A stretch of 64,000 nucleotides of DNA from Salinibacterium sp. NG253. GTDB lineage: Bacteria > Actinomycetota > Actinomycetes > Actinomycetales > Microbacteriaceae. The notes under the pieces were generated by a model. It saw only the letters and a list, made by a program, of their open reading frames with translations, did not search any database and was not told where the DNA came from. This document shows positions 18,377 through 38,996 of the stretch, piece by piece. Where the stretch lies: positions 1,860,378-1,924,377 of the forward strand of contig NZ_JADYWF010000001.1 of NCBI RefSeq assembly GCF_015864945.1, read 5' to 3'. Every line of letters begins with the position of its first letter. Within the stretch, counting starts at the first letter, position 1. The translations under genes were made by a program, and so were the position numbers.

Positions 18377-19803
18377 GGGGTGAGCCCGTCTGTTGTGAGA
18401 GCTGTTCGATGCGTGAGCTGGGGATCCGACAGCGCGTTACGAAAGGCGCGATTGGGACGCGCGTGCGGCAGTGCTGCCGAGACTTCTGCCAGGGCCCGTT
18501 CGATCGGGATGTTGAGGTGCCGGGCCGCATAGAGCGCAGCGACGGTAGGCGTGCGGCTCTGCGCCTGCACGCAGTGGAGCAGCACGGTGTGGCCTTCGGC
18601 GCGGAGAGTGGCGACGGCATCCGCAGCATCCGCCAGTACGAAGCTGAGGTTGGGGTTCTCGTCGGGCTCGACTCGGTCGATCAGCCGGATCTCGAGGCGC
18701 TCGCGGATGCGCGCCGGCACCTGCTTCGAGCCGATGCGGCACAGCGACACCACGGCATCCACCTCGGGGGGAAGGTTGTCGAGTGCGCCGACAGCGCCAA
18801 GCCACACGCCGGGATCGTGCGGATGTTGCACGAGCGTCGAGATGTCGCCATACCCGGCGTAATCAACGCGTTCGTCTGCCGGCTTGCCCCGCAGCACTTC
18901 GGTGGAGAGGCGCACGAGGTCGAGGCGGCGCAACCCGGGCCAGCCGTGCACGATGCGTTGCCACGCGGCGGGGATCGCAGAGAGTCCGCACCGCGCGCCG
19001 GTGAGGCCACCCGCAATTGCGGCGACAGTGTCAGCGTCACGACCGCCGCGCACCGCGCGCTCGAGCGTATCGACGAGACCCTCGCCGTTCACGATCGCCG
19101 ACCAGGCTGCCTGCAACGCTTCGACGACCCAGCCGTTCTTGGTGAAGTCACGCGGCTGCTTCGTTTCGGCGTCATCGATGCGGGCGGACCAGAGCGCAGC
19201 GCGGTCGGGGGAGAGGGCCGAGAGGCCGACCCGAACATCCGCTTCGCCGGTGAGAATAGTGTGACGGATGGCGAGGCACCAGAGCACGCAGGCGTCGCCG
19301 GCATCCTCGTCGAAGTGGGTGAGATCGCTGATCGCACGAGCGGCTTCTGCGAGCCCGGTCGGGTCGTTGAGGTAGGCGAGCGCGACCGGCGCAGTGCGCA
19401 TGAGCGAGCCGTTGCCGCCGCTGCGGCCGCGCGCTTCGTGGATACGTTTGGCTGATGCGCGAGCTGCGGATGCCGTGGGCTCGATGCCGCGGAGCACCCC
19501 GCTGGTCTGCACGCCGACATCCGGCGCGGTTTTCGCCCAGTCGATCCACGCGGCGACGATTTCGTTGAGAACTGTTTCGTCGCGCAGGTCACGGCCGGAT
19601 GCGGCGGCTCGCAGGATCGGGATGGCCATGGAGGTGTCATCCGTCCATTCGCCGGGAGCCCAGTTGAAGCCGTTGCCGCCCTTCATGAGCACCTCGCCCT
19701 CGAAGGGTGGGCCGAATTCGTAGCCGGCGCCGAGCGCGTCGCCGCAGGCCATCGCGAGCATGACGCCACTGGCGCGGTCGTTCTGTGCAGAGGTGAGTTT
19801 CAT
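18373..19803 (-). CDS. ADP-ribosylglycohydrolase fused to dual-specificity phosphatase
   Basis: A protein of 476 residues. Residues 1 to about 320 form an ADP-ribosyl-[dinitrogen reductase] glycohydrolase domain: GDALGAGYEF, EWTDDTSMA, GGNGSLMRTAPVAL and GGRDADTVAAIAGGLTGA supply the two Asp clusters that bind Mg2+. The last 150 residues form a rhodanese/dual-specificity phosphatase fold with the P-loop HCVQAQSRTPTVA, a complete C-x5-R motif. The two activities could remove ADP-ribose and then a phosphate from one substrate. The ATG at 19803 overlaps the stop of the HD gene, and an upstream in-frame start is rejected. The substrate (protein, nucleic acid or small molecule) cannot be told from sequence. 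Confidence 0.88.
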   Translation of the reverse strand: MKLTSAQNDRASGVMLAMACGDALGAGYEFGPPFEGEVLMKGGNGFNWAPGEWTDDTSMAIPILRAAASGRDLRDETVLNEIVAAWIDWAKTAPDVGVQTSGVLRGIEPTASAARASAKRIHEARGRSGGNGSLMRTAPVALAYLNDPTGLAEAARAISDLTHFDEDAGDACVLWCLAIRHTILTGEADVRVGLSALSPDRAALWSARIDDAETKQPRDFTKNGWVVEALQAAWSAIVNGEGLVDTLERAVRGGRDADTVAAIAGGLTGARCGLSAIPAAWQRIVHGWPGLRRLDLVRLSTEVLRGKPADERVDYAGYGDISTLVQHPHDPGVWLGAVGALDNLPPEVDAVVSLCRIGSKQVPARIRERLEIRLIDRVEPDENPNLSFVLADAADAVATLRAEGHTVLLHCVQAQSRTPTVAALYAARHLNIPIERALAEVSAALPHARPNRAFRNALSDPQLTHRTALTTDGLTP

Positions 19804-20633
19804 GAGTTCTCCGTTTCGTCCGTCGCGGGCCGCAGAAGCTGCCGCGCGTGAAAGTACTTGTTCGACAACCGCACCTGGGTGTCGTAGTCGAGTTTGCGAA
19901 AGCGCCAATCGGCGAGGTTGTCATTGATGTCCGCGAGCTTCACCGCGAGAGCAGCAGGGTTCTGGCGGATGCGGTCGTAGTAGTCAGCGTCAGCGACATC
20001 CGCCCGTCGGGTCATCAGCTCGACTGCTGTCACGATCTCAGGCAGCATCCCCGCCTTCAGAAGGTCGGCGGCGCTCACGTCGGTGTCTTCGAGCACATCG
20101 TGCAGCCACGCGGTGCAGTGCTCGACCGGCTCGTTCAGCCAATCGAAGCTCTCGGCAACCCGCGCCGGGTGATCGATGTAGTCGTAGCCGAGCTTGTCGA
20201 GCTGCCCGCGGTGGGCGATCGTCGCAATGCCGACTGCGATGCCGTGCTGCACCATCGCGTCGACCTCGGTCATGAGCATGTCGTCGTCTTCGCCGTCGTC
20301 CTCTTCTTCGCCTTCGTCAGTCTCTCCGTCTTGTGCGTCTTTCGCGACGTGGAGGTGTCGCGGGATGCTGTCGACGGCGCCGGGATGAAGCTGCTCGATG
20401 TCGCTGCGGGTGCTTTCGGCGAAGTGGGTATCGTCGTCATCCCGATAGTGCTCAAAAAGGTCGAGGTCGATCTCACCCCACGCATCCGTCTGCCACATGA
20501 AGTAGCGGCGCTCGCCGTTGAGGGTGATGCCGGTGAAGGTGCCGACGTGCAGAAAGCCGGTGTCGGTGAACCGGGTGTAGAAACGTTGCGGCTCGATGGT
20601 GGGGCGTTCTGGGGTGGTGTTCAGCTCGTTCAT
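19800..20633 (-). CDS. HD-domain phosphohydrolase of the ADP-ribose cassette
   Basis: A protein of 277 residues. The C-terminal half has a complete HD motif set: DHPARVAE, WLHDVLEDT and VKLADINDN, closest in form to the (p)ppGpp hydrolase domain of RelA/SpoT and MESH1 proteins. The N-terminal 95 residues (FYTRFTDTGFLHVGTFTGI) form a separate small domain of unknown type. A very acidic linker (DEGEEEDDGEDDD) joins the two. Both ends overlap the neighbouring genes by four bases. Possible substrates are alarmones or modified nucleotides such as ADP-ribose derivatives; the sequence alone does not decide. Confidence 0.8.
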   Translation of the reverse strand: MNELNTTPERPTIEPQRFYTRFTDTGFLHVGTFTGITLNGERRYFMWQTDAWGEIDLDLFEHYRDDDDTHFAESTRSDIEQLHPGAVDSIPRHLHVAKDAQDGETDEGEEEDDGEDDDMLMTEVDAMVQHGIAVGIATIAHRGQLDKLGYDYIDHPARVAESFDWLNEPVEHCTAWLHDVLEDTDVSAADLLKAGMLPEIVTAVELMTRRADVADADYYDRIRQNPAALAVKLADINDNLADWRFRKLDYDTQVRLSNKYFHARQLLRPATDETENS

Positions 20634-21538
20634 GCGTTCTCCAATAGCGGGTGCGCGTCGTCAAACGCAGTCAGGTGGATGATGCTCGGTGGTGCTGTGC
20701 GTGCGTTTGTGTGCACGATTCCGGATGTCCGCAGTCGGCCCTGTTGTGAACGTACCGCTCGGGCCATCCCGGCGTCGCCTCCGTCTTCGAGGGTCACGGC
20801 TTGCAGGTGGCGGGCGAAGACTCGGGCATCGTGGGCGCTGGTGCGACGGTGTGGTGCGAGCCTGGCGTCGAGGCCGGCTGCCTCGAGGATGCCCTGCCAC
20901 CGGGTTTTCAGGCCGGTGCTGCTGCCGAAGATTTCTGCGCCAACCACGCGACCACCGATGCCGATGATCACGCCGCGCTGCCCTTCGAGCAGGTGGGCAT
21001 CGATCGAGCCAGAGCGGTCGAGGTGATCGAGCATCGACGAACTGGCGGTAGTGCCGAGGGTGTTTTCGTAACGGCCGATGCGTCGCCACACCTCGCCCTG
21101 CTGGTCGACGCCGCGCACGTTTCCGTGGCGCACGCTGAGTGCGCTGCGACGACCGCTGGTTTCGTGGGTGCTCTGGGTCTCTGGGGTTCGTCCGCCCCAC
21201 CGCCCGTGCTCGACGCAGAGCGCGGCGACGACTCGTGCCTCGAAGGGTTCGAGCAGAAGGCTAGCGGCGAGCATCCGATCTTGCCAACCGCCTTTCAGCA
21301 GGTCGCCTTCGAGGGCGACGACCGGGCGGGTGGTGCTGTTGTGCAACACGAGTTCGCCCACGACGGGGGAGCCTTCGCGTTCGGCGGTGCGGATGCTCGT
21401 GGCCTTCCAGTCAAGGCCGGTGACTCTGGGCGAGTCGACCCAGACGGGGAAGATGCTGAGGCTGCCGTGGTGGCTGCCGTGCCCCACGTGGAGTTGGGGG
21501 ATTTGTCTGTTGGGGTGTCTGTTCGTGTGTCCGTTCAT
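20630..21538 (-). CDS. ARPP-1 family protein
   Basis: A protein of 302 residues. It matches my memory of the ARPP-1 family (named for association with ADP-ribosylglycohydrolase and rhodanese-phosphatase proteins): an N-terminal LSIFPVWVDS strand, then VVGELVLHNSTTRPVVALEGDLL, GGWQDRML and VVAALCVEHGRWGG. Biochemical function is unknown; comparative genomics places the family in NAD/ADP-ribose-linked systems. The start at 21538 is chosen for the GGAGG four bases upstream; an earlier in-frame start would run into the regulator promoter. It is the first gene of the four-gene unit read to the left. Confidence 0.8.
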   Translation of the reverse strand: MNGHTNRHPNRQIPQLHVGHGSHHGSLSIFPVWVDSPRVTGLDWKATSIRTAEREGSPVVGELVLHNSTTRPVVALEGDLLKGGWQDRMLAASLLLEPFEARVVAALCVEHGRWGGRTPETQSTHETSGRRSALSVRHGNVRGVDQQGEVWRRIGRYENTLGTTASSSMLDHLDRSGSIDAHLLEGQRGVIIGIGGRVVGAEIFGSSTGLKTRWQGILEAAGLDARLAPHRRTSAHDARVFARHLQAVTLEDGGDAGMARAVRSQQGRLRTSGIVHTNARTAPPSIIHLTAFDDAHPLLENA

Positions 21539-21552
21539 GGTGCCTCCGATAG

Positions 21553-21619
21553 TTAGCGCATTGTTGCGCAAATTCAGAGTATGACACCCCACCGACATTT
21601 AGCGCGGATCTGCGATAAT
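21553..21619. promoter_or_regulatory. Two operator-like dyads and promoter between regulator and ARPP-1
   Basis: TTAGCGC-N6-GCGCAAA (21553-21572) and TTAGCGC-N6-GCGATAA (21599-21618) are imperfect dyads of the same design, 46 bases apart. The second covers GATAAT (21614-21619), which is six bases before the ATG at 21626, so the regulator gene is probably leaderless and self-controlled. The first lies just upstream of the ARPP-1 ribosome site. The likely ligand is the Nudix regulator encoded alongside; this is inference. Confidence 0.6.
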
Positions 21620-21625
21620 TGCATG

Positions 21626-22261
21626 ATGGAGACCTACCGCGACTCGCACGACCGAGCACTCACCGACTACCCGCGGCCCTCCGTCGCCGTCGACACCGCC
21701 GTGCTGACCGTCCCGCCGGGTGCTGCCCTCAGCGTGCTGCTCGTGCGCACCGGCGACGAATGGCGCCTCCCCGGAACCTTCCTGCACGAGCGAGAGAGGC
21801 TCGCGGATGCCGTGCTCCGGTCGCTGCAGACCAAGGCCGGGGTATCGGGTTTGTCGCCCCGCCAACTTCACGTCTTCGACGACCCCGCCCGCGACAACCG
21901 TGGCTGGGTGCTCTCGGTCGCGCACCTCGATGTGGTGCCGTGGTCTCGACTCACGATCGACGAGTCTCTCGCCAAGATCGTGCCCGTGACGGATGCTGGC
22001 GCGCTCCCTTATGGGCACAACGAGATCCTCGACCAGGCGGTGGCAAGCATCCGCTCAAGCTACGCGACGACACCCGATCCGGCCGGCCTGCTGGAGCACC
22101 CGTTCACCCTGCGCCAACTGCAGCAGCTGCACGAGACCATCGCGGGCGAGCCGCTGATGCGCGATAGCTTCCGTCGCGCGATGGAGCCGCAGCTCGCGGC
22201 GACGGGCGAGCTCGCCGCCGGCACCGTGGGGAAGCCGGCGCGGCTATTCGCTCGTGCTTAG
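21626..22261 (+). CDS. NrtR-like Nudix-domain transcription regulator
   Basis: A protein of 211 residues. Residues 10-140 form a Nudix domain (SVAVDTAVLTV at the start, EWRLPGTFLHE and LRSLQTKAGV where the Nudix box should be). The box has lost its catalytic glutamates: LRSLQTKAG replaces the usual REL-x-EE-x-G, so hydrolysis is unlikely and sensing is favoured. The last 70 residues (HPFTLRQLQQLHETIAGEPL, then a helix and GKPARLFARA) are the winged helix of NrtR proteins, which sense ADP-ribose and repress NAD genes. It is divergent from the ADP-ribose cassette, with two matching dyads between them. Confidence 0.85.
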   Translation: METYRDSHDRALTDYPRPSVAVDTAVLTVPPGAALSVLLVRTGDEWRLPGTFLHERERLADAVLRSLQTKAGVSGLSPRQLHVFDDPARDNRGWVLSVAHLDVVPWSRLTIDESLAKIVPVTDAGALPYGHNEILDQAVASIRSSYATTPDPAGLLEHPFTLRQLQQLHETIAGEPLMRDSFRRAMEPQLAATGELAAGTVGKPARLFARA

Positions 22262-22876: not shown

Positions 22877-25876
22877 TCAATCTGTCTTGGCGGCGGGCTG
22901 AACCGTCGCGAGGCCTCCAACGTCCCGCCAAATCCAGGCAGAGCGGGCTTCTGGTGCTGCCGCATACGGCACGGTGAAGCTGAATACCGTAGCAACATCT
23001 TCCGCAGGAAGTTCGGGCGGTAGAGCAGCCAGCGGCTCCTTGCCCTTATTTCGCCCTGACGGCACCGCGTTACTGTCAACCGGATCGTAAGTGAAGAAGA
23101 GAGCGAGCACGCCACGAGTTCCGTCCCCTGCTAGAGCCTGCGCTTCTACGGTGCCTTCCGCCTCTGGGTGCCCTGCGATAGCTTTGAATGGCTCTTCTCT
23201 TCGCGTCAGTTTTCCTGAGAATGCAGGCCGGTCGGTGCGGCGGGTGATCGCACGCACTGGCAGTTCGAGTTCCGCCACTTTTCGGAAAGACGCGCCTCCG
23301 GTTTCTGGGATCATCACGACGAACTCTGTCAGTTTCTTTTCAGCGATGAGCAAACTCATGAACGCCAGGTGCTCTTCGATGCCGTGTCCGATAGGCATAA
23401 CGAAATCCACGAGTGCGTCAACAACAAGTTGCGCATCAACAAGCCAACAGGTAGCCGGCCAGATCAGCTTTCCATCCGCGTCGTGGAAAGGAATCTGCTG
23501 GCCTGCGCCAGAGAGCAAATGCGTGACGGCAGCGATTCGAGCAGGATTCGGGTCAGTGTCTCGTCTCGGATACCACGTCCGCTCAATGGGTATCCCCCCT
23601 TCACCGATGTGCTTGAGGACTGCGTTGTGGCGTTTGTTAGGCGCAACCGGGCGAAGCCAAGGAAGCGCCTGAAAAATCAACGCAGGTATCTGTCGAGGAG
23701 TTATCTTCGGCTTACCATCGGCATTGACGCCTTCGAATCTCCGGAGTTGACGGCGAAGAAGGAGCTCGTCTTCCATGCTTCCCTCGAACGCTCGGTACAG
23801 GTCGAAAGTCTTGCCCTTCGCATCCACAACGTAGCGATCGATGTATAGCCTCACTAGGTCGCGATATCCCCGCCGATAGCCGAACCATCGCCCCATCTGC
23901 ATGAGCGTGTCAGCGGCTTCTGACTTTCGGCGGAAATAAGAAATGGTGAGGTCTTCAACGGTGAAGCCTCGACTGAGTTTTGCGCCACCGACAAGAATGC
24001 GCCAAGTGTCTTTAGCCTGAAAATCAAGCTTTTCGTAGTCTGAGTCCTTGTCTCCGTTGACAACCACTACCGGCGAGCCCGTATCTTCCATTCGGCCGAT
24101 CGCTTCGCCAATAAAGGGAACGAGGGCGGCAAAATGATCAGGCATCGGAAGGTCTTCGAAATCACGAGTATTGCGACTTCGCCAAACAGGGAGTATGTCG
24201 GTTTCCCACTTCCTCTTTAGGCGCTGTTTTCCTAGGGCCGTTTTGAACCCGGACCTCCCCCAAATTGCGTCGATGCGGGCTGCAAGAAGCGCATGATCTT
24301 TTTGGCTAACCGACTCATGGACCAGCATTGTGTGGTGGCGAAACTTGAAAGTTGAGTTTGCTTGTCGCCACAGCTTTATTCCGCCGGTCAGAACCCAAGC
24401 GTCAATCGCATCGGCGAGTTCATCATCTTCGTCCAGCTGAGCGTTCAGCCCCAAGTCGCGCACAAACGCAGCTTCGTTCGAAACTGCCGGGTCGGCCTTG
24501 TCGAGCGTGGGTTCAGCGTCTAGATCGTGCATTGCTGCGCCGCCCATATATTCTCTTGACGGCTCCAGCGAGAACATGAAGTCTTTCGGGAAAATGTCCT
24601 CCTCCACGTCCGGATTCACGAATACGTTAGCGGCGGGAGTCGCGGTGTAGCCAAGGTACTGAGCGCGAGGCATCACCTTTAGAAGCTTGACGATCTCCTT
24701 GTTGACCGCCGTGCGCTCGACTTCCTCGGCGCTTCCTTTACCCGGACGAATTGTGTTGATTGATGCAAGGTCGGACTCGTCATCCAGAATCAGCGCGGGG
24801 ATTTCGTTGAGGTCGATATGCAGTGCTGCCAAATCAGCATTGAGTTTCCTGAGCACTGTGGAATTCTTTTTTACGACAGCTAGACGCACCGCGGTGTCGT
24901 GGAGGTTCTGCGAATCCCATAACGGTTTTTGTTTTGCGGCCTTTTCGATCTGAAAATCAAGAACCGTGCTGTTGATAACGCCGAGAAGTTTATAGTCGGT
25001 GAGCGATGTGGTGAGCCGCCGAATCGCGGGCACGCCGGGGGCGTTAACCGGGTTGACCCCGAGCTTGGAGAACTTACCAGCGGTCCACTCCTTGTCGCCG
25101 GATTTCACATAGTCAATTTGCTGAGCGAGAACGTCATCTTCTAGGGGAATTCCGCCGACAATGTTTTCCCAACCTACTAGCTCCTTGTCGAGCCTTCGCT
25201 GCGTCTGCGTGCGGAGGTTGTCGTAGGTTCCGGTCAGGACAATTATGAGTCTGTAGCCTGAATCGATAGCTTTCGCCATCACTCCAGTGAAGTTTGCAGT
25301 CTTACCACTCTGAACGTATCCGACGACTAGCCCCTTGCTTTGATACGGGGCCGCAGAAGTCGGATCAGCTAGTCGACCCACGATCCGGTTCGTCATTTCA
25401 TCAATGCTGGCGATAGCGTGGCCGTCAAAGTTGTTCTCTTCCAGCACCTTCTTGTAATGCTTCCAGTAAAAGTCGTGCGACCCTTGCCGCGCGGTGTTGT
25501 ACCAAGGCTCCCAATTTGCGTCGACGATCCCGGCACCGAAAGTCTCAATGGGAAACTCCGCGTCAATTTTGAGCCTGGCGGACTCGCTCAGGCCGAGGCG
25601 CTCGTGGATGCGCGCTCTACGCTCTGCTGATCCGGCGACTGTTCCCGCAGCCCACTTTGGGTCTTGATCTTGATCCCAGGTGTTTATTGCAATCCAGAAT
25701 GGTGTTTGCGCGGGCTGGCCGACATCCGTGATTCCCGCGATGACGACATTCTCGCCCACTGTGATCTCTTCGTACTCAAGATTGCGGTTGACCTCGTCTA
25801 AGAGAGCGCGTGGCCCCATCGGGGCAACACCTTCAACGGCAGCTTTGACTGCCGCGGCGATTCTGTCGGCGGTCAT
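22877..25876 (-). CDS. Z1-domain superfamily II helicase/ATPase
   Basis: A protein of 999 residues. Walker A is GYVQSGKT (186-193) and Walker B is LILDDESD (362-369). Late motifs GGAKLSRGFTVEDLTISYF and LMQMGRWFGYRRGY correspond to helicase motifs V and VI and define the Z1 family. The C-terminal 300 residues show no domain I can name. Z1 helicases occur in restriction-like operons with GHKL ATPases and PD-(D/E)XK nucleases, as here, and probably translocate on DNA to license cleavage. The ATG overlaps the nuclease gene stop; it is the last gene of the defence operon. Confidence 0.9.
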   Translation of the reverse strand: MTADRIAAAVKAAVEGVAPMGPRALLDEVNRNLEYEEITVGENVVIAGITDVGQPAQTPFWIAINTWDQDQDPKWAAGTVAGSAERRARIHERLGLSESARLKIDAEFPIETFGAGIVDANWEPWYNTARQGSHDFYWKHYKKVLEENNFDGHAIASIDEMTNRIVGRLADPTSAAPYQSKGLVVGYVQSGKTANFTGVMAKAIDSGYRLIIVLTGTYDNLRTQTQRRLDKELVGWENIVGGIPLEDDVLAQQIDYVKSGDKEWTAGKFSKLGVNPVNAPGVPAIRRLTTSLTDYKLLGVINSTVLDFQIEKAAKQKPLWDSQNLHDTAVRLAVVKKNSTVLRKLNADLAALHIDLNEIPALILDDESDLASINTIRPGKGSAEEVERTAVNKEIVKLLKVMPRAQYLGYTATPAANVFVNPDVEEDIFPKDFMFSLEPSREYMGGAAMHDLDAEPTLDKADPAVSNEAAFVRDLGLNAQLDEDDELADAIDAWVLTGGIKLWRQANSTFKFRHHTMLVHESVSQKDHALLAARIDAIWGRSGFKTALGKQRLKRKWETDILPVWRSRNTRDFEDLPMPDHFAALVPFIGEAIGRMEDTGSPVVVVNGDKDSDYEKLDFQAKDTWRILVGGAKLSRGFTVEDLTISYFRRKSEAADTLMQMGRWFGYRRGYRDLVRLYIDRYVVDAKGKTFDLYRAFEGSMEDELLLRRQLRRFEGVNADGKPKITPRQIPALIFQALPWLRPVAPNKRHNAVLKHIGEGGIPIERTWYPRRDTDPNPARIAAVTHLLSGAGQQIPFHDADGKLIWPATCWLVDAQLVVDALVDFVMPIGHGIEEHLAFMSLLIAEKKLTEFVVMIPETGGASFRKVAELELPVRAITRRTDRPAFSGKLTRREEPFKAIAGHPEAEGTVEAQALAGDGTRGVLALFFTYDPVDSNAVPSGRNKGKEPLAALPPELPAEDVATVFSFTVPYAAAPEARSAWIWRDVGGLATVQPAAKTD

Positions 25877-26859
25877 TGGACTTCCTCCGCAAATTCTTGG
25901 ACTGGATGAGACAGTGAGAAAAAGGGAAGCTGTGTAACGTCCACTTGATAGCGCACGCTAACTATTAGTTGTGGGCTAGGAACGTTTTCAACCACCGTGG
26001 ATGGGGTGAGAGCAGGAAATAAATCGTCAACTTGGTAAGCGCGTGGGCGACTTCTATACAGCCATCGCGTGGGATAAAGATCCGCGTCTTCATCGTGCCA
26101 CCCGGCTTTTGCAAGTTTCTCGTCGATTCCCCGATGCCAACGCTCGTCGGTGGCACGACGGATATCGGCGACGATATCTGTCAACGATCTTCCCTCGGCA
26201 GCTGAGCCACCACCAGTCAATTGAATTGACACAAGGCTGAGTGGTCGGCTCGGCGCTGCCTCTAATTGCGTCAGCGAATTGATCGTGTGTACTCGACCCT
26301 CGCTTCGAGTCGTTTTCACTTCGAGGTCGAAGTCTCGAAAGACGAAGTCGTGTTCTTCGTTCTCGATTCCCAACCAAGCTTCAAGCGTCTCCTCCGATGC
26401 CGTTGCGAGGCCGTGCTCGAGAACCAGCAGTTCTCCGAAGAGGCCAATTTGCTGTTCTTCCGATAGTTTCGTGCGCCGCGCAAGAATTTCTCTGAGAGCC
26501 CCAACGGCGACCGGAACTGCATCATGGAATTTCACTCCACTCCGAAGCAGCTCAGCGATCACGGCGAGCACCTGGTAGGAGGCGAAACGATCTTCAAGAG
26601 CGTGGACAGTCAGTTCATGCCAGTTCCCGCCGGCGGGATTCTTCACGAGCTCATAACCGATATGGCGCAGTGAGGTGACGTCGGGCGCGGCCGTCGTGAC
26701 AGCTGTTGTCTGCAAAGTGAGCTGGTCGGTGCCGGGCGTAACAATTAGATAGGTCTCAGGTTCCGCTGCAATCCTCCGCCGCGCTCGCGCCAACGGGGCG
26801 TTGAAAAGTGCATCGATGTCGGCTGGGCTGAGCCGTGCACTTGGTTCATTGACGGTCAT
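25873..26859 (-). CDS. PD-(D/E)XK motif nuclease (DUF4420 family)
   Basis: A protein of 328 residues. The core is IGLFGELLVLE (Glu at about 143), EEHDFVF (Asp 171) and DLEVKTT (Glu 180, Lys 182), the spaced acidic-acidic-lysine set of restriction endonuclease folds. The N-terminal 130 residues and the C-terminal 130 residues are probably for DNA or partner contact. This is the expected cleavage subunit of the operon. Start and stop overlap the neighbouring frames by four bases, implying fixed stoichiometry with the GHKL ATPase and Z1 helicase. No catalytic residue is missing. Confidence 0.88.
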   Translation of the reverse strand: MTVNEPSARLSPADIDALFNAPLARARRRIAAEPETYLIVTPGTDQLTLQTTAVTTAAPDVTSLRHIGYELVKNPAGGNWHELTVHALEDRFASYQVLAVIAELLRSGVKFHDAVPVAVGALREILARRTKLSEEQQIGLFGELLVLEHGLATASEETLEAWLGIENEEHDFVFRDFDLEVKTTRSEGRVHTINSLTQLEAAPSRPLSLVSIQLTGGGSAAEGRSLTDIVADIRRATDERWHRGIDEKLAKAGWHDEDADLYPTRWLYRSRPRAYQVDDLFPALTPSTVVENVPSPQLIVSVRYQVDVTQLPFFSLSHPVQEFAEEVQ

Positions 26860-28403
26860 TCGAACTGTCCTTTCGTCTGCTGACGGTACCGGCGCTCCTC
26901 GGAGTGCGCGGCAGCTGTCAGAAGTTGCAGCCAGACTCGTTGGTCGGCCTGCTCCTTGGGGCCCGGTCGGGCCCCAGTGAAATGGGCGCCATAGATGAGG
27001 AGCAGCATTGTTTTGAGTAGGGGTGCGTCGTCATTATCATTCGGGCCTGAGCCGTTATTAAGTACGTCCCGGTAGCGCGTGTTAAGCCAGATCGTTCGCG
27101 AGCTGAAATCGAAGTGAAGCAGATCGTCACTTGTCATCGCGCGCCAGCGCACGTCGACTTCATCACCATCAATGAACTGGGCGGCATCGCCGGAGGATTC
27201 GACGATTCCCGCGATGGCGGCTTGAAGCCCGGCGGCAAAACCCCGATCTGGTTTCGCGAGGCGCGTGGGAACGAGAGCGTGGGTCTTGGATTCCTTGTAT
27301 TCGTTGGATGCAACGCTCAAGAAGTCGGAGAAGGTTAGCCCATTGTTGCCAGTCGCGGCCAACAGCGCTTGGTTGAGGGTTGAGTCGAGCTCGACACCGC
27401 GTTTTTCCGGGTTCATGGTGACGTGCGACTCGAGCGCCTCATCGAGGTCCAGGCTGATGCGGGCAAATCGGTATTTGAGATCTGGGTGCACGAGTCCTTG
27501 CCAAGAGCCGTCTGAAAGTAGGCGGTTGTGGCGGTATACGAACACTCCTTGATGCTCGGCGCCTTTTCCTCCGAGAACGTACCCCGGCAGAGTCGCTTGG
27601 CCCGCTGGCCAAACATGGAAGCTAGCGAACCGCGACTTGCCATCGACCTTGTAAACGTATTGCTGAGGGAAGCTAAAGTTGCCGGTGACTTCATAGCCGA
27701 ATGGATCAACGGCGACGACTTCGATAGGGAACCCGCCGTCGTTCAGGTCGAGATCCCACTCGTCCACCGTGATCTTTGTCCGGCGCGCCGAGATTAGGCG
27801 GTGGAATGTGATGCCGAGATGAGAGATAAGCAGGCGACTAGCCGTGCTGAACCAAACCTCCCTCTCGCTGGGCGCCGCATCTAGGAGGAAAGTGCGGGGA
27901 TCCGCCCACTCGACTATCGTGCCTGAATCGAGAGGGAACCCTGCTTGCGCGCCCGCGAGGGCAGCAACTACGTCTTCGGTATCGATTGTGTAGACGGTCG
28001 TCGGGCTGGATCTGTTGATTTGACGGCCTGCCGGGACAGCCCCCGCTTCTCTGGAGTACACCCGCAACGTGTCCGCTTGGCTCATCGACGATGCTTTCAT
28101 GCCAATACCGAAGTGCCCGAGGTCTCCCGTGCCGTAGTCACGCGTTTTTGCGTACTGCATCGCGGAGTCAATGGCAGTGGCGTCCATGCCGCCGCCATCA
28201 TCGATCACGCGGAGGCCAATGACGACGCCATTTGAGCGCAAGAACCGGATGAGCACGTTCGCCGCTCCGGCGTCGATGCTGTTGTCTACGAGGTCAGCTA
28301 CAGCGCTCTCAAATGAGTGGCTGCGTCCAACGGCGTGCACGATCGATTTGTCTGGCGCGACGGTGATGGAACCGCCAAGTTTGGGTGCAACGATGCCGCT
28401 CAT
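26856..28403 (-). CDS. GHKL (MutL/MORC-like) ATPase
   Basis: A protein of 515 residues. The N-terminal 220 residues hold a histidine-kinase-like ATPase: VADLVDNSIDAGA (N box, 36-47), DDGGGM (68-73) and GHFGIGMKASS (96-106). No phosphoacceptor or sensor domain is present, so it is a DNA-acting or scaffold ATPase of the MutL/Hsp90/MORC class and not a kinase. The C-terminal half is unassigned. ATP-driven dimer closure could clamp DNA and recruit the adjacent PD-(D/E)XK nuclease, by analogy with MutL-like restriction systems. ATGA overlaps bind it to both neighbours. Confidence 0.88.
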   Translation of the reverse strand: MSGIVAPKLGGSITVAPDKSIVHAVGRSHSFESAVADLVDNSIDAGAANVLIRFLRSNGVVIGLRVIDDGGGMDATAIDSAMQYAKTRDYGTGDLGHFGIGMKASSMSQADTLRVYSREAGAVPAGRQINRSSPTTVYTIDTEDVVAALAGAQAGFPLDSGTIVEWADPRTFLLDAAPSEREVWFSTASRLLISHLGITFHRLISARRTKITVDEWDLDLNDGGFPIEVVAVDPFGYEVTGNFSFPQQYVYKVDGKSRFASFHVWPAGQATLPGYVLGGKGAEHQGVFVYRHNRLLSDGSWQGLVHPDLKYRFARISLDLDEALESHVTMNPEKRGVELDSTLNQALLAATGNNGLTFSDFLSVASNEYKESKTHALVPTRLAKPDRGFAAGLQAAIAGIVESSGDAAQFIDGDEVDVRWRAMTSDDLLHFDFSSRTIWLNTRYRDVLNNGSGPNDNDDAPLLKTMLLLIYGAHFTGARPGPKEQADQRVWLQLLTAAAHSEERRYRQQTKGQFE

Positions 28404-31400
28404 TCGCTGGTGAACCCCTGCCCTTTGAAGCCGAGCGTCGCCCCATTTTCTTTCACCGTGCGCGCTAGATTAGTCTCAAACCCGCCGAGTTTGGATGCGT
28501 CGATCTCGATGCGAATCTCTAAGCTGTCTGGGGCTGCTTGCTGTAAGTGAACGAGCACTTCTTCCGCGATGGCCTTAACTTGGGCGGCTAAGTCGCCCGC
28601 TGGTCTTAAATCAACGCGCGCTGCATAGTTCACGTTCTGGATTGCTGGGAGACTTGGCGACACAAGCGAAGCAGCAGTCGTGGTTTCAGGTGCGCTCGTA
28701 GAATCGTCGATGGACTCGGGCTGCTGCTGAGCGCGCTCCCTCTCCCGCTGTGCGCGGGCTAGTGTCGGGGAGACGAGTAGGGTCTGGTCAGTAATCGCGG
28801 GAGCGTGGTCCTCGATCGGGAGTCGAAGGCCATCAAAGTCGCCCGTTGACTCGTCGTACCGTGTGGCCAACGCGAAACCATGCGCATCCCACGCCATGTC
28901 ATCCATGACAGCCCCAACGGCGTCGGTCAGCACGGACTTGTCACGAAGCCGGGGGAGATAGGGGTAGCGAGAGTGGTACTCCCACAGCTCGCCGACGGTC
29001 ACTCGCCCGCTATTCCACTTCGCACGGAGATGATTAGTGAGCGCTATGCCAATCGAAGTCGGAGAGTGTTGCACTTGCACGATGTCGTTCCGTCGCAGTC
29101 GTTCGGCGACATGACGAGCGATGGAGTCTGTTGCGCCGTCAACCTTAAGCTGGCTAATTGCCCATTGTTGATCCCCAGCGTCCTGCTGGGCGTGCAAGGC
29201 CCAAATCCACGTCTCACGGATGCGTTGCTTAACGATTCCGTTGAACTGGTCGATTTTCGACTTTGCCTCGTTGGTTTGACTTTCCGTGAGGTTCAGCGCC
29301 GAGCGAGAATCGTAGATTGAGCGCCAGGCAAGGTAGTGCCGCACAGATTGCTCTAGCTCTTTGAGCCGAGCACTGTCAGCAGTCAGCACCACGACCGAGT
29401 TAGCGTTAATGCGCCCTCCCGCGCCTCGCTTTGACGTTACCTCGCGCGCCCACAGCCGACCGGTCGTGTCTTTGCCCTTTTGTTCATGCGTGTAGCGGGG
29501 GTGGGCGATGACGAGGCGCACGCGATCTTTCTCATCAACATCGCTGGTGTCCTCCGGAGCGATAATTACTTCGGAGATCTCAGTCGTCGATTTCGGTTCT
29601 TGACGGAGCCGTGAGGTGATCTCTGCCCAGACATCAGCCGGCTGATAGGAATCGGCACGTTCGGCTACGGTGCGGTTCAGCGACGGCGTGCGGTCAAACC
29701 AGAACCGGTCCGAGTCAACGTATAGGTGAGTCGCACGTTCCGTGAGCTGGCTCAAAGCGGAACCGAAGTTGCCGATGGTGTCGCCGGGGAGTGCAACGCT
29801 GAGGAAGACCTGCTTGCGAGCTATACCCTTGTGTTCCGTCGTCAGGGTGGCAGCAGATCCCATGAAGATCGAGCGCGCGATCCTCCGCGTGAGGGCGCGC
29901 GCTCCGAATAATGGTTTCTCATTGTCGATGTAGACAGCGTTCGACAATTCACCGTCAATGTCCTTGGCGATGATGGGCTGCCACTCGTCAGGAAGGTAAC
30001 CTGCGATTTCGTCGCGTACTGCGTCGCTGTCGAGTGGGATGGAACCGGGCATGATTAAAGGGGCTCGATCGCCGGCTACCCACAAGGAGTGAACGACTTG
30101 GCTCATCAGGCGCAAGACGCCGCGGGTGCGCTGAAAACGTTCGAGCATCGACCAGTCACCGTAGAGCCGATCGAAGAGAGCCGGATGAATGGGGTAAGCC
30201 GCGCGAATGCGGTCCTCATAGCCGTAGTCGAGGGACTCTCCCGGCAATTCACCCTTGTGGTCGGTGTAGAACTTAGTAAATCGACGCGCGACCTGCTCGA
30301 TTGTTGTGAGGGCAGCAGCGTCGGGTTCGCGGAACAACCGACGTTTGACGATCTCGAAGGATTCTATCGGCTTGGCAGGTGCCCAGCGGTATGCATCTCG
30401 AGTCATCGTGTGGTCGAGCATGTCGAGCGCATCTCGCCCGCGCGGCCCTCCGATTTCGATGTCATGGGCGGAGACTGTGTCGTCATCTGTTCTAGCTTCG
30501 GAGGCCGGCAGTGAGACAAGAAGTACAGTGCCGGGGGTGCCTTTTACTGCCGCGTTGAGGGCTTGAGCAAAACTTCGTTGCTCCCCAAAGTCCCCGCCGG
30601 GAAGACCGTCTTTACTAACAAGCCCCCGAGCGTACGCGACCCATTCATCGATAAGGATCACCGCCGGGCCGTATGTTTGAAGCAGCGTGCGCAGGGCATG
30701 GCCTGGGTTGGTTCCATTGCGATCGGAGTCCGCGACGAGCGCGTAGCCTGCTGCCCCACCCAACTGCCACGCGAGTTCGCCCCAAATGGTGTGAATTTCG
30801 GTTCCGTCGCGCATCCAGGACTGTCCTGGCGAGAGTTCATTGCCGACGATCGCAACGCGACGAACTGGAGCGGTGAAAGTTTCCGCGGGAACAAGATCTT
30901 CTAACAGGTCTTGTACAGCCTGAGGAAAATTATTGAGGGGACGGCCGGAAAAAAGGTGCCACGCTGCGAGCATCGCGTGAGTTTTTCCTCCTCCAAAGGT
31001 CGTCTGAAGATTGATGATCGGCTCAGCGTTGGTATCTCCAGCGACACGCCGAGCGACGTGCTTGAGTAGCGTTTGGATGCCTTCGGTCAGATATGTTCGG
31101 CGGAAAAACTCAATTGGGTCGGCATAGTCTGCGCCAGCGTGGCCGTTGGCCACTTGGTAGAGGTCTGCGGCGAATTCCGCGCTTACGAAGTCGCCGGCAG
31201 CGACGTCAGGGTGGGGTTCGAGAACGTCCCGCCAGGCTGGAACATCGCCGGCGTCGAGCGTGGGCATCGCGGCGAGGCGTTTGCTGTCCTTCTTTGCTTC
31301 GGCTACTTGGCTCGACTTGACGATTTCACGTCGCTCAGCGTCGACAATATCTGCGGCGCGGGGATCATGGATTTCCCTGAGTAGCAGCACCATTGTGTCA

Positions 31401-31732
31401 AGCGCGCGCTCTGCTTCCTTGGGCTGCCACGGGCGATTGTGATTGGCTTTGTTGCGCACGTCAAGCAGTTCCGAAGACCAAGCTTTCGTCGCAGTCTTGC
31501 TGAGTTCGTCCCAGAAAGGGTTACGGCGGCCGGCGGGCCACGGTAGCGAAATGAGGTACAGCTGGGATTGCGGATCGTAGGGTTCGTAGACGTTGCCGGG
31601 GAACCGGGTCTCGACTATTTGGGTCCAGTCGTCGCCGGGGCCGAGCACGGACTCGATGAACGCGCGCAATGCTGGCGCGAAGACATCGTCGAGCGCACGG
31701 CGCACCCGATCCTTATTTGAGAACTCTGCCAT
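28400..31732 (-). CDS. DUF499 ATPase with Swt1/HEPN-like N-terminus
   Basis: A protein of 1110 residues. Residues 1-125 resemble the Swt1-type HEPN domain, including RNKANH (93-98), an R-x4-H motif like that of HEPN ribonucleases. The DUF499 ATPase follows, with Walker A TTFGGGKT (244-251) and Walker B AVILIDEW (357-364). The rest is long and mostly unassigned, with an acidic, proline-rich stretch near 1020-1050. DUF499 ATPases pair with DUF1156 methyltransferases in defence loci, exactly the upstream gene here. A GGAGG site 9 bases before the ATG supports the start; the gap from the methyltransferase is three bases. Confidence 0.88.
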   Translation of the reverse strand: MAEFSNKDRVRRALDDVFAPALRAFIESVLGPGDDWTQIVETRFPGNVYEPYDPQSQLYLISLPWPAGRRNPFWDELSKTATKAWSSELLDVRNKANHNRPWQPKEAERALDTMVLLLREIHDPRAADIVDAERREIVKSSQVAEAKKDSKRLAAMPTLDAGDVPAWRDVLEPHPDVAAGDFVSAEFAADLYQVANGHAGADYADPIEFFRRTYLTEGIQTLLKHVARRVAGDTNAEPIINLQTTFGGGKTHAMLAAWHLFSGRPLNNFPQAVQDLLEDLVPAETFTAPVRRVAIVGNELSPGQSWMRDGTEIHTIWGELAWQLGGAAGYALVADSDRNGTNPGHALRTLLQTYGPAVILIDEWVAYARGLVSKDGLPGGDFGEQRSFAQALNAAVKGTPGTVLLVSLPASEARTDDDTVSAHDIEIGGPRGRDALDMLDHTMTRDAYRWAPAKPIESFEIVKRRLFREPDAAALTTIEQVARRFTKFYTDHKGELPGESLDYGYEDRIRAAYPIHPALFDRLYGDWSMLERFQRTRGVLRLMSQVVHSLWVAGDRAPLIMPGSIPLDSDAVRDEIAGYLPDEWQPIIAKDIDGELSNAVYIDNEKPLFGARALTRRIARSIFMGSAATLTTEHKGIARKQVFLSVALPGDTIGNFGSALSQLTERATHLYVDSDRFWFDRTPSLNRTVAERADSYQPADVWAEITSRLRQEPKSTTEISEVIIAPEDTSDVDEKDRVRLVIAHPRYTHEQKGKDTTGRLWAREVTSKRGAGGRINANSVVVLTADSARLKELEQSVRHYLAWRSIYDSRSALNLTESQTNEAKSKIDQFNGIVKQRIRETWIWALHAQQDAGDQQWAISQLKVDGATDSIARHVAERLRRNDIVQVQHSPTSIGIALTNHLRAKWNSGRVTVGELWEYHSRYPYLPRLRDKSVLTDAVGAVMDDMAWDAHGFALATRYDESTGDFDGLRLPIEDHAPAITDQTLLVSPTLARAQRERERAQQQPESIDDSTSAPETTTAASLVSPSLPAIQNVNYAARVDLRPAGDLAAQVKAIAEEVLVHLQQAAPDSLEIRIEIDASKLGGFETNLARTVKENGATLGFKGQGFTSE

Positions 31733-31735
31733 TGG

Positions 31736-34555
31736 TCAATCCTCCAGTGAATCAAAATCAAGCATTGTTGGATCGGTGGTGACTGTCGTCGGCGCGTTTA
31801 CTGAGGCTGCGACAATCTCGGGCCAAGCGGAAGCTAATTGGTTGAACTCAAGCGCGGGTTTGGTAAGGCCGCGTTTTTCGGAGAGTACGAAAAGTAGGTC
31901 CGCGAGAGCCTTGCCTTCAGTCATGTCAAAGCCGCGCTCGATAGCAGCCAGCAGAATACGCCCCGCGTCGTCCAAACCGGACTCTGTAACTGCTTTGGCG
32001 AGGTGAAGCACGACCTCCCACAAGGAAATATGGTCGTCCTTGCGGGGGTCATAGCCGGTGGCGAGATCGTCGAGGCCGTGCAGTCTGACCTTGCCCCCAC
32101 CGTTGTTGACTACGCCGCCGCGGGCGAGCCCGTCGACAGTTGTCGCTTTCGCGGTGGCGAGGGTGTGCGCATCTCCGAATGGACCAGAATCAAAGCCGTA
32201 CTGCTCATACCACGCCACACACCAGCGGGTGTCGGAGTCGAAGTCCCCCTCCTGCTCTCGCCGAACGGTGTCCAAAACTGTGTTGATCTGCACGAGCGCA
32301 TCGTGCACCGTCATCGCCGAGCCATCTGACTGAACAATTTTGGCGTACTTCGAGAAGATCGCCATACCTGGGCCGATTGCCGCCTGCGCCATATCGACCG
32401 GGGCCACCGTGCCTTGATGAAGCTCGCGAAGGGACTCCGCCAGGGAGGACTTCAATTCGGCAAGGAACCCGCGTCGATCTGTGATGGGTGCGTCCTCCGG
32501 GCGGGGGCGCAGAGCAAGGACGATAGAAGACGCGAGCGCGTTTGTGCCAGACGCAACCATCCGGTTTCCCATCTCGGATCTGACTGGCCAAGTGGCAGTG
32601 ATGGTCCAACCCGCGCGCACCATCGAGCTGAGAATGGTTTCCCAACCTGTTGAAGAGGTGCCGTCTACATTCGAGTCAACCTGCTTAAAAGCGTAGTACA
32701 CGGTTATTGGGAAATCGGGACTCGCAGATGCTCGCGCTCGATCGAAAACTTCTTCGAATCCGTGCTCGAAGAAATCTTTCGCACCAGCTTTTCCACCATG
32801 GCGGTAGGGGTTCGCTACCAACTCCTCCGACTTCGGTACAAGCATCGTTCCTAACAGTGAGGGGTGAATTGGACGCAATGAGCGACGAAGCCACACGTAG
32901 AAGAAATCGCTGAGATCTGAATATCCGATATTGTCGTAGTACGGCGGGTCTGTTGAAACCAGAAGGCCTTCGTAACTCCGGCTAGCTGCATCCGCCTGGG
33001 TAACGTTGGCGACTGGGGGGCGTGCAGGGACCCTTTCGAGCGCCTTCACCAGATTCCCGAGACTAACCCCGAATGAGCCAGCGGCTTTACCGAACGGGGG
33101 TGCTTCGCCGAAGTCCCAGATCATCGGAATCGCTTGTCTGCCAAAGAGATTCCGGATCTGCTCCTTCGTATTCTCCCAGCGCGTGAGCGAATTGGCGATG
33201 TCCGTCAGTCGGCTCACACCCATGCCCAGATAGGTGGCAACCGCATCAGCATAGGCAGCGCCTTCGGTGCCTCCTTGTTCGAGACGGGCGCCCCCGGACA
33301 TCCCGGATGCGAGTGCATCTTGGAATACCTCCTCCCGAGCCTCTCCTACGAGGTCGCTGAAGGTTGTCAACGCAGTCAATTGTCGGTTCGTGAATAGGTC
33401 CACCCAATCGAGCATCCCGTACGCTTGAACTCGAAAAGACAGAGCTTTTTCGGGTAGTTTCCCATCGGGGAGCGTTCCTGGCCGACCCAGATTGGCGGCA
33501 TCGACTTGCGCGATCGTCGGTTCGATAAAGACACGAGTACGTTGACTTTCGGCGACCGTTGCAAGGAGTTGGTTGCCGAATCCAACCACGCGGCTCTGTT
33601 CGCGGATATAAGCAAGTGGTACTGCTGCGCCGCATGAAACACAGATCGCTCCGGCGCGACCTACTGTCCCGTCGCCCGTCTTGATCGGCGCACTCGCTAG
33701 ACCGTGTCCAATCGTGTACACAACTTGCTTACCTGCGACGCTCGGCAACAGATAAGCTTCTTTTCCCTTCTTAGTGCTCAACCACCATGACCTAACAAGC
33801 GGCATCTCTATTGCGCAAGCCGGGTTGGGGCAGGTGATGGTGCGCGCCCATATCCATGCGACCACGGTCGCCTTGGAGCCATCGGAAAGTATTGCTTTCG
33901 GATATAGATGCCCAATCCGTTGTTCAGCTTTATCGCTAATCCACGCCCCATAGCGACGCACGTCCTCAGCTAGACCGCCAGCTCTTGTCCACTCGTTACG
34001 TTGCCCCGCTGCATCCGGAAAAACTGGGGGGCGGTCGGCAAATTTTGGCGGAATCTCGATCAATGCCTTGTCGATCAGTACGGCTACCGGATTCAAGTCG
34101 CTCGCATGTGCTTCCAAGCCCAGGCGCTGTGCCTCTAAGGGGATAGTGCCACCGCCGGCGAAGGGGTCGAGAATCGCGGGCGGTTTGCCGTTCGTGCTCT
34201 TGAGGATCTCGGCTCGCACCTCGTCGAATAGCGCTTCGTCCCCGAGGTTGTTCCAATCCACCATTCGTTCGATCAGCCTGAAGAGTCGTTGGCGTTCCGT
34301 CTGAATCGCCCGCTCGGCGTAGGCGGCGACGTCCTCCTCGCCCTTACGAGCTGCTTCTTCGCGGTACTCGAGCTCCCTGTTGCTCGGGTCATCCACGAGT
34401 TGCGCGAAGAGCACGGCTCTGGCCGTCGCGAGCGGTCGCCGAGCCCACCACAAGTGGAGGGTTGAAGGATGGCCGTGACGAATCGATTTCTCACGCGCTG
34501 ACTGCTTGTTGATCTCCTCGAGGGGGAGTGCTACTTCGATCAGTTTGCGCTTCAT
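31736..34555 (-). CDS. DUF1156-type N6-adenine DNA methyltransferase
   Basis: A protein of 939 residues from the ATG at 34555; an in-frame ATG at 34594 would add 13 residues, but the family normally begins MKRKLIEVALPLEEIN. Residues 1-50 are the DUF1156 signature (SIRHGHPSTLHLWWARRPLA). DPFAGGGTIPLEA (130-142) is the SAM-binding motif I and DPPYYDNIGYSD (536-547) is the catalytic motif IV of gamma-type adenine methylases. The protein should mark self DNA, with the operon's nuclease and ATPases acting on unmarked DNA, or the reverse. It is the first gene of the five-gene operon. A cysteine pair (CPNPAC, then CVSC) suggests a zinc site in the middle. Confidence 0.9.
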   Translation of the reverse strand: MKRKLIEVALPLEEINKQSAREKSIRHGHPSTLHLWWARRPLATARAVLFAQLVDDPSNRELEYREEAARKGEEDVAAYAERAIQTERQRLFRLIERMVDWNNLGDEALFDEVRAEILKSTNGKPPAILDPFAGGGTIPLEAQRLGLEAHASDLNPVAVLIDKALIEIPPKFADRPPVFPDAAGQRNEWTRAGGLAEDVRRYGAWISDKAEQRIGHLYPKAILSDGSKATVVAWIWARTITCPNPACAIEMPLVRSWWLSTKKGKEAYLLPSVAGKQVVYTIGHGLASAPIKTGDGTVGRAGAICVSCGAAVPLAYIREQSRVVGFGNQLLATVAESQRTRVFIEPTIAQVDAANLGRPGTLPDGKLPEKALSFRVQAYGMLDWVDLFTNRQLTALTTFSDLVGEAREEVFQDALASGMSGGARLEQGGTEGAAYADAVATYLGMGVSRLTDIANSLTRWENTKEQIRNLFGRQAIPMIWDFGEAPPFGKAAGSFGVSLGNLVKALERVPARPPVANVTQADAASRSYEGLLVSTDPPYYDNIGYSDLSDFFYVWLRRSLRPIHPSLLGTMLVPKSEELVANPYRHGGKAGAKDFFEHGFEEVFDRARASASPDFPITVYYAFKQVDSNVDGTSSTGWETILSSMVRAGWTITATWPVRSEMGNRMVASGTNALASSIVLALRPRPEDAPITDRRGFLAELKSSLAESLRELHQGTVAPVDMAQAAIGPGMAIFSKYAKIVQSDGSAMTVHDALVQINTVLDTVRREQEGDFDSDTRWCVAWYEQYGFDSGPFGDAHTLATAKATTVDGLARGGVVNNGGGKVRLHGLDDLATGYDPRKDDHISLWEVVLHLAKAVTESGLDDAGRILLAAIERGFDMTEGKALADLLFVLSEKRGLTKPALEFNQLASAWPEIVAASVNAPTTVTTDPTMLDFDSLED

Positions 34556-34660: not shown

Positions 34661-35665
34661 TTAGAGGCTCTCGCGCGCAGAGCGGATCGCCTGAGACCAA
34701 GAGCCGAAGACGTTACGAAGCGAAGCGGCGGCGGGACGTTGATGGCCGGCGGCGGCTTGGCCTCTTCGCCATTCCGCGTAGTGATCCACAGAAGTGCTCA
34801 TCCCCGCACCGTCGGCCCACTCGACGAAATCGAGGGAAGCGTTGTGGTAATCCTCCGCCGAGTATTTGACAAGTCCTTTAGACCGCCCGTGTTTCGACTT
34901 TCGAAGGCCCACACGTTCGAGCGTCTCATTCCACCCACCGAACCTGGCCATCGCCGTCTGACGGGTCGGAGGCCAGAAATGAGTACCTCGCGAAGAGTTG
35001 ACTTCCCATTCCTCGAGCGTTGCCCTTCGGAGTGTTTCGTACCGAGCGCCCGTCAGTGTGACCTTGGGATTCTCTCCCGCGAATCCTCGCGCCGCGGCAA
35101 TGACGCCGAGAACTCGTGAACGACTAATCTCGTCTACACCCTGCTCGGCGAGAGCGGCAGCGACATCGTGGATCGTTGCCGCATCTAGCGTAGCCACCGC
35201 GAGTGCAGTGTCAGGCGGAATCTGGTAGTCGACGCCAAAGATGAACCACACTGCGGCGACCAGCGAATGGTCCGTAATAAAGTCTTCGCTCCAGTCCTGC
35301 CGGAAGACGATCCGCGACGCCCGCAGCACAGAACTCGCCAACACCTCGTCGATACTTGGCTCGATGGTTTTCAGTCGCGCAACGACGCTCCGGAGAGACT
35401 CTCCTTTAGAGGCGAGTTCGCGCGCGATCGGCAGATACTCGGCCGTGAAAGCATCGCGCTGAAGCTGGTGAGCCGTTTCTCGGGCCTCAGCAGCTGCCTG
35501 GTGCGATTGCTTGGAAGATGGGCCGCCGGCCTTCTTGATTATCTGGCGGACACGCTCGCGCGTCACCCCGTATGACGCGCCGATACTCTCGAGGGTTTCC
35601 CCGGCCGCCCGCCGTGCGATGATGTCGCGCTCGCGAGCAACAGTGGCTTCTGTTCGCTGGCTCAT
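34661..35665 (-). CDS. Sigma-70 region 4-like HTH protein with HNH-associated repeats
   Basis: A protein of 334 residues from the ATG at 35665 (an upstream start adds nine residues). Residues 22-46 (GETLESIGASYGVTRERVRQII) form a helix-turn-helix of the sigma-70 region 4 kind. The C-terminal 130 residues contain two or three repeats of the form RFGGWNETLERVGL and VFGSWSQAIRSARESL, matching homing-endonuclease-associated DNA-binding repeats. No nuclease or sigma region 2 is visible, so it is probably a DNA-binding regulator. It lies about 105 bases upstream of the methyltransferase gene in the same direction and may control the defence operon. Confidence 0.7.
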   Translation of the reverse strand: MSQRTEATVARERDIIARRAAGETLESIGASYGVTRERVRQIIKKAGGPSSKQSHQAAAEARETAHQLQRDAFTAEYLPIARELASKGESLRSVVARLKTIEPSIDEVLASSVLRASRIVFRQDWSEDFITDHSLVAAVWFIFGVDYQIPPDTALAVATLDAATIHDVAAALAEQGVDEISRSRVLGVIAAARGFAGENPKVTLTGARYETLRRATLEEWEVNSSRGTHFWPPTRQTAMARFGGWNETLERVGLRKSKHGRSKGLVKYSAEDYHNASLDFVEWADGAGMSTSVDHYAEWRRGQAAAGHQRPAAASLRNVFGSWSQAIRSARESL

Positions 35666-36172
35666 CGAAGGCCCAAAGCGGTGGCACGGCACACTTCTTC
35701 AAAGATCCTCATACTGTTGCTACCGCATTCTCGAGGAAGCCAATGGCGGACCTGGCCGCTTTGATCAGACAACTTGAAGAGAACCGTACGCTTGATGGTT
35801 GAGTCATTTTTCCGCCTTGACCGGCGCACTCCCTACGGTGGAAACGCGGTTACAACACGGTATCGCGACGGTGACAGGGTTGAGGCGGCGAGGATGCCCC
35901 CAATGTCAGGGGCATCCCTGTAAGAAATAATCATGTTCAAGAGTTGCGATCATTCAGTACCTGGTTCGTCGCGCGGCCACCTTTTCAACGGGCGGGTGCC
36001 CCCCCCGACGAGGCAACGGTTACGAGCACGGCACTAAAGAAGCGCAGGGGAGACATCGTTCGAATCGGAACCATCGGTCGTGGACGTTTTTGTGGGTCGT
36101 CTTGGCTGGTCTCGCCGATAGTGTGGCAGTGTGCGCACCAATGCCCGATCGGTGATGCAGGCGGAATGCAGA
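35666..36172. other. Non-coding stretch upstream of the gene scar
   Basis: I see no convincing gene in these 507 bases. The only clear structure is a hairpin, GGATGCCCC (35892-35900) with GGGGCATCC (35909-35917), a 9-bp stem with an 8-base loop, placed between divergent gene ends. A 19-codon frame (35743-35802, begins MADLAALIRQLEE) is too short to support. Confidence 0.5.
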
Positions 36173-36898: not shown

Positions 36899-38689
36899 TT
36901 ACTCCGCATCTACACCGCTGGTCGGAATGAACTTCTTTAAGTAGTCGCGGAGTGCGGGATCGCAGACATAGACGTACGTGCCGCGAATTCCACGAGTGAG
37001 GAGTACCGCGTAAACATTGCTGATTAGCTGGAGCAGATCGGCATCGGTATAGACCTTGTCGAGCGTTGGATTGTTCTCTTTGCCTTTCTTATCGAAGTAG
37101 GAGTCGCGGTCGATGAACAGAGAATCAGTTGCAGGGTTGTACCTCAGGTCATTCCCGATGATGACGCCGGCATAGTTGAGGTCGTATCCCTGAACGGTAT
37201 GAATCGAGCCGACTTCGTCAACTGAGTTTGGGGAGGCGATCCAATCCACCGCCTTGCTGTTCCAGCGAAGCTGACATCCGTCGATTTCGATGTCATAGGC
37301 GGCGGGCTGCTTCTTGGACTTCCACTCCCACGCGTAGCCGGCGGTAAGCCTAGACAAGCCGAACTCGACATCCTTCCTGCGAATTTCATCGTGCATTCGC
37401 TCGACACTGTCGAACAGGCGAAAGTCGTAGCCCGCAAACTTTTCAGGAATCAGAGGAGCAGTTTTCGCTTCGATCGATGCGGCCCCGACTAGGTGGCGCA
37501 CGTAGCCAACGTAATCCGACTCGGCCCGCACCCGCATCTGCGATGCGAGCCTGTAGTGATTACTGGCAGCCTTCGCGTCCTGAACTAAAGCGCGAGTCAC
37601 CGACAGCGGGAGATCGGCGGGGCGAACACTCTGAGCTTCGTCGATGAGCAGGATCTGATGGCGGCTCTTGGCGCGCAGCCAATCTAACTGCGTCTTAGTT
37701 TTGTCGTCAGTTCCAAAGAGAGCTTCGGTGATTTCTTTGAACTTGGTGTTCTGGGGCCCAGAGGCTTGATTAGCCCGCTGGTTCAGGCGGTGGGCTTCGT
37801 CGACGATCAAAATGTCGAAGTCCTCGGCGGATTCTCCTACTTCGAACGGAGTCATCACCATGCTCCGAGTCAATCCGGGTGTCTTCGCGAAGACGTTCTG
37901 GATGGACTTCCGCAGCGACTGTTGCGGTACGACTATTCCGAGCCGCAGCCCTTCGAGGATCTGAGGGTAGCCGGATGCGAAGAACTCGGAGAACATCGAA
38001 TCTTGGTCGATGTCGTTGTGCGGTTCGGAGTGCGCGATGTCAACGAGTAGCTTCATGAGGTAGATCGCGATTACCGTCTTCCCCGTGCCGGGGTCGCCTT
38101 GGATCACAATCGTGCTTAGTTTGCTCTTCTCGAGGTTCTCGAATAAACCCTCGACGATATCTTCAACGGCGATTGCTTGATCAGGGCTGAGAGACTTAAA
38201 GGGCGACAGCTTGAAGAGATCGCTGTTCTCGATCTCCGGGATTGTGCGCGTGAACACTCCATCGGACCGTAGTTCCTCGAAGACTTCCCGGAACGACGTC
38301 TGATAACGCTCACGGTCGTAATAGTCGGAATCGGTTATGCCGTCGTTCCGGTTCAGCACACGATATGTTCCGTCCCCGGCAAGCAGACGGATGAGGTAGG
38401 ACTCTAGATCTAGACAGGCTGACTTATTGAATGTGCTGTCGATCACCACACGCACAGTTTTGAGGTGACTCTTGCTGCTCGAGTCGAGGTGCTGCAGCAT
38501 TCTTCCGGCTGCATTGCGCGACTCGCCCACATAAACGTCGCTGAGACGCGACCGTTTACCTGCTGCTGTTTTTTCTGCGTCGTCCAGAACATAGACCACC
38601 GGCCAGTTGGTATTTCGCGCACTTAGCTGCGCCCAGACCCCGATGTCTTGCTTCTTGAACGCGACCCGCTCAATCTCAAAGTCGGTCAT
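36899..38689 (-). CDS. GIY-YIG nuclease fused to DUF2075 helicase
   Basis: A protein of 596 residues. Residues 30-105 form a GIY-YIG nuclease domain: VVYVL, DVYVGESRNAAGRMLQHL and a later Glu in DLESYLI. DUF2075 (a superfamily I-like helicase) follows, with Walker A GDPGTGKT (198-205) and DEAH at 297-300; later motifs include IHTVQGYDLNYAGVIIG and LLTRGIRGTYVYV. The ATG at 38689 lies inside the 3' end of the MazG-like gene (14-base overlap). The pair is a plausible antiphage module, nuclease and helicase in one chain with a nucleotide-pool enzyme. The end abuts the glycohydrolase relic. Confidence 0.85.
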   Translation of the reverse strand: MTDFEIERVAFKKQDIGVWAQLSARNTNWPVVYVLDDAEKTAAGKRSRLSDVYVGESRNAAGRMLQHLDSSSKSHLKTVRVVIDSTFNKSACLDLESYLIRLLAGDGTYRVLNRNDGITDSDYYDRERYQTSFREVFEELRSDGVFTRTIPEIENSDLFKLSPFKSLSPDQAIAVEDIVEGLFENLEKSKLSTIVIQGDPGTGKTVIAIYLMKLLVDIAHSEPHNDIDQDSMFSEFFASGYPQILEGLRLGIVVPQQSLRKSIQNVFAKTPGLTRSMVMTPFEVGESAEDFDILIVDEAHRLNQRANQASGPQNTKFKEITEALFGTDDKTKTQLDWLRAKSRHQILLIDEAQSVRPADLPLSVTRALVQDAKAASNHYRLASQMRVRAESDYVGYVRHLVGAASIEAKTAPLIPEKFAGYDFRLFDSVERMHDEIRRKDVEFGLSRLTAGYAWEWKSKKQPAAYDIEIDGCQLRWNSKAVDWIASPNSVDEVGSIHTVQGYDLNYAGVIIGNDLRYNPATDSLFIDRDSYFDKKGKENNPTLDKVYTDADLLQLISNVYAVLLTRGIRGTYVYVCDPALRDYLKKFIPTSGVDAE

Positions 38690-38996
38690 ATTTTGTGCTC
38701 GTACCTTGGACTTTCTCGACAGGGTATTTTTCCCGTGAAACGGCAAGTTTGTCTCGAATAATTTGATCGGGGGTCAAGCCCATACGATCAGCAAGCATGA
38801 AGCAGTAGGTCAGGACGTCGGCGAGTTCTTCTTGAACTCGCGCTGGGTCCGCCTGTGAGTTCCACTGAAAACACTCGAGCAGCTCGCCCGCTTCGATTGA
38901 GACGCTTTTGGCCAGATTCTCGGGTGAGTGAAATTGTCCCCAATCGCGCTCCGCCACGAAGGCCCTGATCTCGTCTCGGAGAGAAGGTTCATCCAT
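38676..38996 (-). CDS. MazG-like nucleotide pyrophosphohydrolase
   Basis: A protein of 106 residues. FVAERDWGQFHSPENLAKSVSIEAGELLECFQW and VQEELADVLTYCFMLAD carry the two E-x-x-E / E-x-x-D metal motifs of the all-alpha NTP pyrophosphohydrolase fold (MazG/RS21-C6 type). It should hydrolyse nucleoside triphosphates, perhaps modified dNTPs, to monophosphates. TAGGTT six bases before the ATG suggests a leaderless promoter. It overlaps the helicase gene, so both are made together. Confidence 0.87.
   Translation of the reverse strand: MDEPSLRDEIRAFVAERDWGQFHSPENLAKSVSIEAGELLECFQWNSQADPARVQEELADVLTYCFMLADRMGLTPDQIIRDKLAVSREKYPVEKVQGTSTKYDRL

Follow-up and report, generated by a model that had tools for sequence, protein, structure and literature searches.

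A five-gene operon in Salinibacterium that appears to join the marking half of one defence-system family to the cutting half of another

In a 64,000-nucleotide stretch of the Salinibacterium sp. NG253 genome (contig NZ_JADYWF010000001.1; hereafter the window), five genes run in one direction, separated by a 3-base gap and then by three ATGA overlaps (Table 1). This layout had been described in an earlier account made from the letters alone (the sequence-only reading), and it is borne out here; the same set recurs in relatives, and all five genes are under strong constraint. The first two proteins are recognized as a DUF1156 methylase (PF06634 at 93.7 bits in Pfam; HmaB at 1079.5 bits over 15-937 in PADLOC; start set from homologues) and a DUF499 ATPase (PF04465 at 101 bits and PF18731, HEPN_Swt1, at 45 bits in Pfam; HmaC at 825 bits in PADLOC). 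The nearest relative of solved structure for the GHKL ATPase is MORC2 (E 6.5e-10), and a motif check finds D...ExK kept in the DUF4420 nuclease.

Table 1. Genes of the operon and the gene preceding it (window coordinates).
Feature	Coordinates	Strand	Motifs, matches and remarks
DUF1156 DNA methylase (HmaB / BR-MTase type)	31736..34555	-	DPPYY motif, Cys-rich insert
HEPN_Swt1-DUF499 AAA+ ATPase (HmaC / BrxC-like)	28400..31732	-	R-x4-H, Walker A/B, C-terminal domain
MORC-like GHKL ATPase (distant MzaB relative)	26856..28403	-	PF13589 79 bits; MzaB 65 bits (PADLOC)
DUF4420 PD-(D/E)XK nuclease (distant MzaD relative)	25873..26859	-	PF14390 139 bits; MzaD 53 bits (PADLOC)
Fifth operon gene, Z1 helicase per the sequence-only reading	22877..25876	-	
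Upstream gene, sigma-70 region-4 helix-turn-helix + HNH_repeat	34661..35692	-	PF04545 35 bits, PF18780 32 bits; longest open reading frame, GTG start, start provisional

With 394-398 genomes sampled per rank, the locus is patchy, being present in 12 of 398 family genomes. The gene order and the close spacing are repeated at ten loci, where gaps never exceed 9 bases (longest-open-reading-frame starts; the split GHKL gene of L091, left out of GHKL comparisons, is spanned by coordinates); L090, which shares a contig with L001, was not counted. That the two halves might be separate operons which only rarely co-occur, named beforehand as an outcome that would overturn the proposal, has against it an ordered, tight set at ten loci. 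In a tree without L052, whose methylase gene is interrupted by an IS3 element, one DUF499 clade is confined to five-gene loci. The two halves can also be inherited separately. Remnants of a DUF1156 methylase lie just upstream of an open GHKL gene at L057:11327-11701, L058:13044-13439 and L102:5463-5984, the last continuing into codons that, judged by eye, resemble the end of DUF499.

The site of the operon looks like a defence hotspot. A genome of the same genus (G1079, locus L131) lacks the window from 19.8 to 36.8 kb and has the flanks joined; two others (L128, L129) have both flanks with different genes between them, while in L130 and L132 the right flank alone lies within the fetched stretch. 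Seven large proteins chosen from these last four loci gave PADLOC matches to ZacB/ZacC, type I and type IIG restriction enzymes, an HKD-SNF2 type helicase and DruE, and in these sister genomes ZacBC and type I restriction, type IIG restriction, or DruE-like genes adjoin the same right-hand flank. The G+C content is 0.54-0.60 across 23-39 kb and 0.65-0.66 immediately outside, although it dips to 0.59 elsewhere in the window too. At the edge of the hotspot, 36902-38746 (-) encodes a helicase of Schlafen group 3 that also matches GIY-YIG weakly; the empty-site genome G1079 retains this gene.

The five genes seem to act as a single machine against phages, made of the marking half of one system family and the cutting half of another, and we think it likely that they represent a new subtype of the BREX-related restriction systems; the operon would work as such a system with its engine exchanged. 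Much the same data could be read as two independent systems joined at the level of the transcript only, an Hma pair minus its helicase and an Mza-like remnant minus its methylase, since PADLOC recognizes each half under a different named system and the halves can part in inheritance. We regard this as improbable: order and junctions recur with no gap above 9 bases, SNF2 was not seen alongside the core, the constraint extends to all five genes, and the DUF499 clade is specific to five-gene loci.

It is very unlikely that the locus chiefly restricts modified incoming DNA in a type IV-like manner, with the methylase in a regulatory role. MORC-like ATPases are seen as responding to epigenetic signals by PMC2292703, and some DUF499 systems are accompanied by EVE readers according to PMC7641849; Pfam, however, shows no reader domain in the five proteins, and the related systems are interpreted as self-marking. 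A locus for chromosome maintenance or silencing rather than defence hardly deserves credence, although the GHKL ATPase does resemble MORC, and MORC and MutL relatives have roles in silencing and repair; such a function fits poorly with presence in so few family genomes and with a site that is empty in one sister genome and holds other defence genes in others.

What complicates the picture is a divergent cytosine methylase (Dcm) gene, adjoining the operon or one gene off, at seven of the ten loci. The sequence-only reading had asked how often the five genes co-occur without AIPR or Dcm: AIPR gave no match at any of the ten, and Dcm is near at seven. In the entire genome that carries the window (99.9% complete), PF00145 has no match, while the control search was positive in 10 of 14 genomes; the closest relative's genome likewise has no cytosine methylase. 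Because all five genes are strongly constrained all the same, the DUF1156 mark alone probably suffices. The pairing of a MORC-like ATPase with a likely adenine-type mark, in two genomes that lack cytosine methylase, is relevant to how DNA marks are read by MORC proteins.

The sigma-like upstream gene, a possible regulator of the operon, also precedes it in L097 (61% identity) and was not seen at the remaining eight five-gene loci. Farther off, an ADP-ribosylglycohydrolase, an unnamed gene and an ARPP-1 protein stand in a row (18376-21598, -; 21581-22258, +) adjoining the gene of a NUDIX/NrtR-type regulator; together they might make up an ADP-ribose pathway.

Dissecting BREX and related systems is difficult, as marking, sensing and killing are interlinked. 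Here the marking and sensing pair would have been kept and the killing part exchanged in nature, so that contacts between BrxC-like ATPases and effectors become testable by setting two types of effector, each on a related front end, against each other. Loci of this kind could escape notice, since the protein models used here name the halves differently (PADLOC) or, at cut-offs, not at all (NCBIfam).

The operon is real and conserved, and matches no named system in the material searched, as the sequence-only reading had held; its wider idea of a hybrid restriction-like system is supported in part. It falls outside Mza because AIPR and MzaA are missing and scores stay under cut-off: MzaB, MzaC and MzaD all match far below the NCBIfam cut-offs, two AIPR queries (MzaE) found nothing in window 20-40 kb or at the other nine loci, and the upstream gene has sigma-70 region 4 only (MzaA 13 bits in PADLOC, 21 against a cut-off of 800 in NCBIfam). 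The GHKL/MORC operons of PMC2292703 and PMC9523054 similarly combine a GHKL or MORC protein, a helicase and a nuclease with a DNA methylase in one operon, but DUF499 is absent from PMC2292703, and section 11 of PMC9523054 names a cytosine methylase core and neither DUF499 nor DUF1156, leaving three more type I genes undescribed. BREX Type-3 (BrxC, BrxXI, BrxHII) shares a BrxC-like AAA+ protein and a related N6-methyltransferase (PMC12839542), whereas PglZ, BrxA/B and BrxHII are unmatched among the five proteins; nor do these or the next two upstream genes give a Pfam match to DUF3780, or to PglZ with iSTAND, of the BREX-related Types 2 and 3. Hma, or BREX-related Type-1 (BR-1), consists of an SNF2 helicase-nuclease, a DUF1156 N6-methyltransferase and a DUF499 ATPase, HEPN-fused in many (PMC8565338, PMC12839542). 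The operon lies outside Hma because HmaA, the SNF2 helicase usually carrying a C-terminal restriction endonuclease, is found neither in it nor at the other nine loci, and the window's own genome has weak partial helicase matches only; both other components are present, methylase and HEPN-DUF499 ATPase standing in identical order and matching HmaB and HmaC over their full length (1080 and 825 bits).
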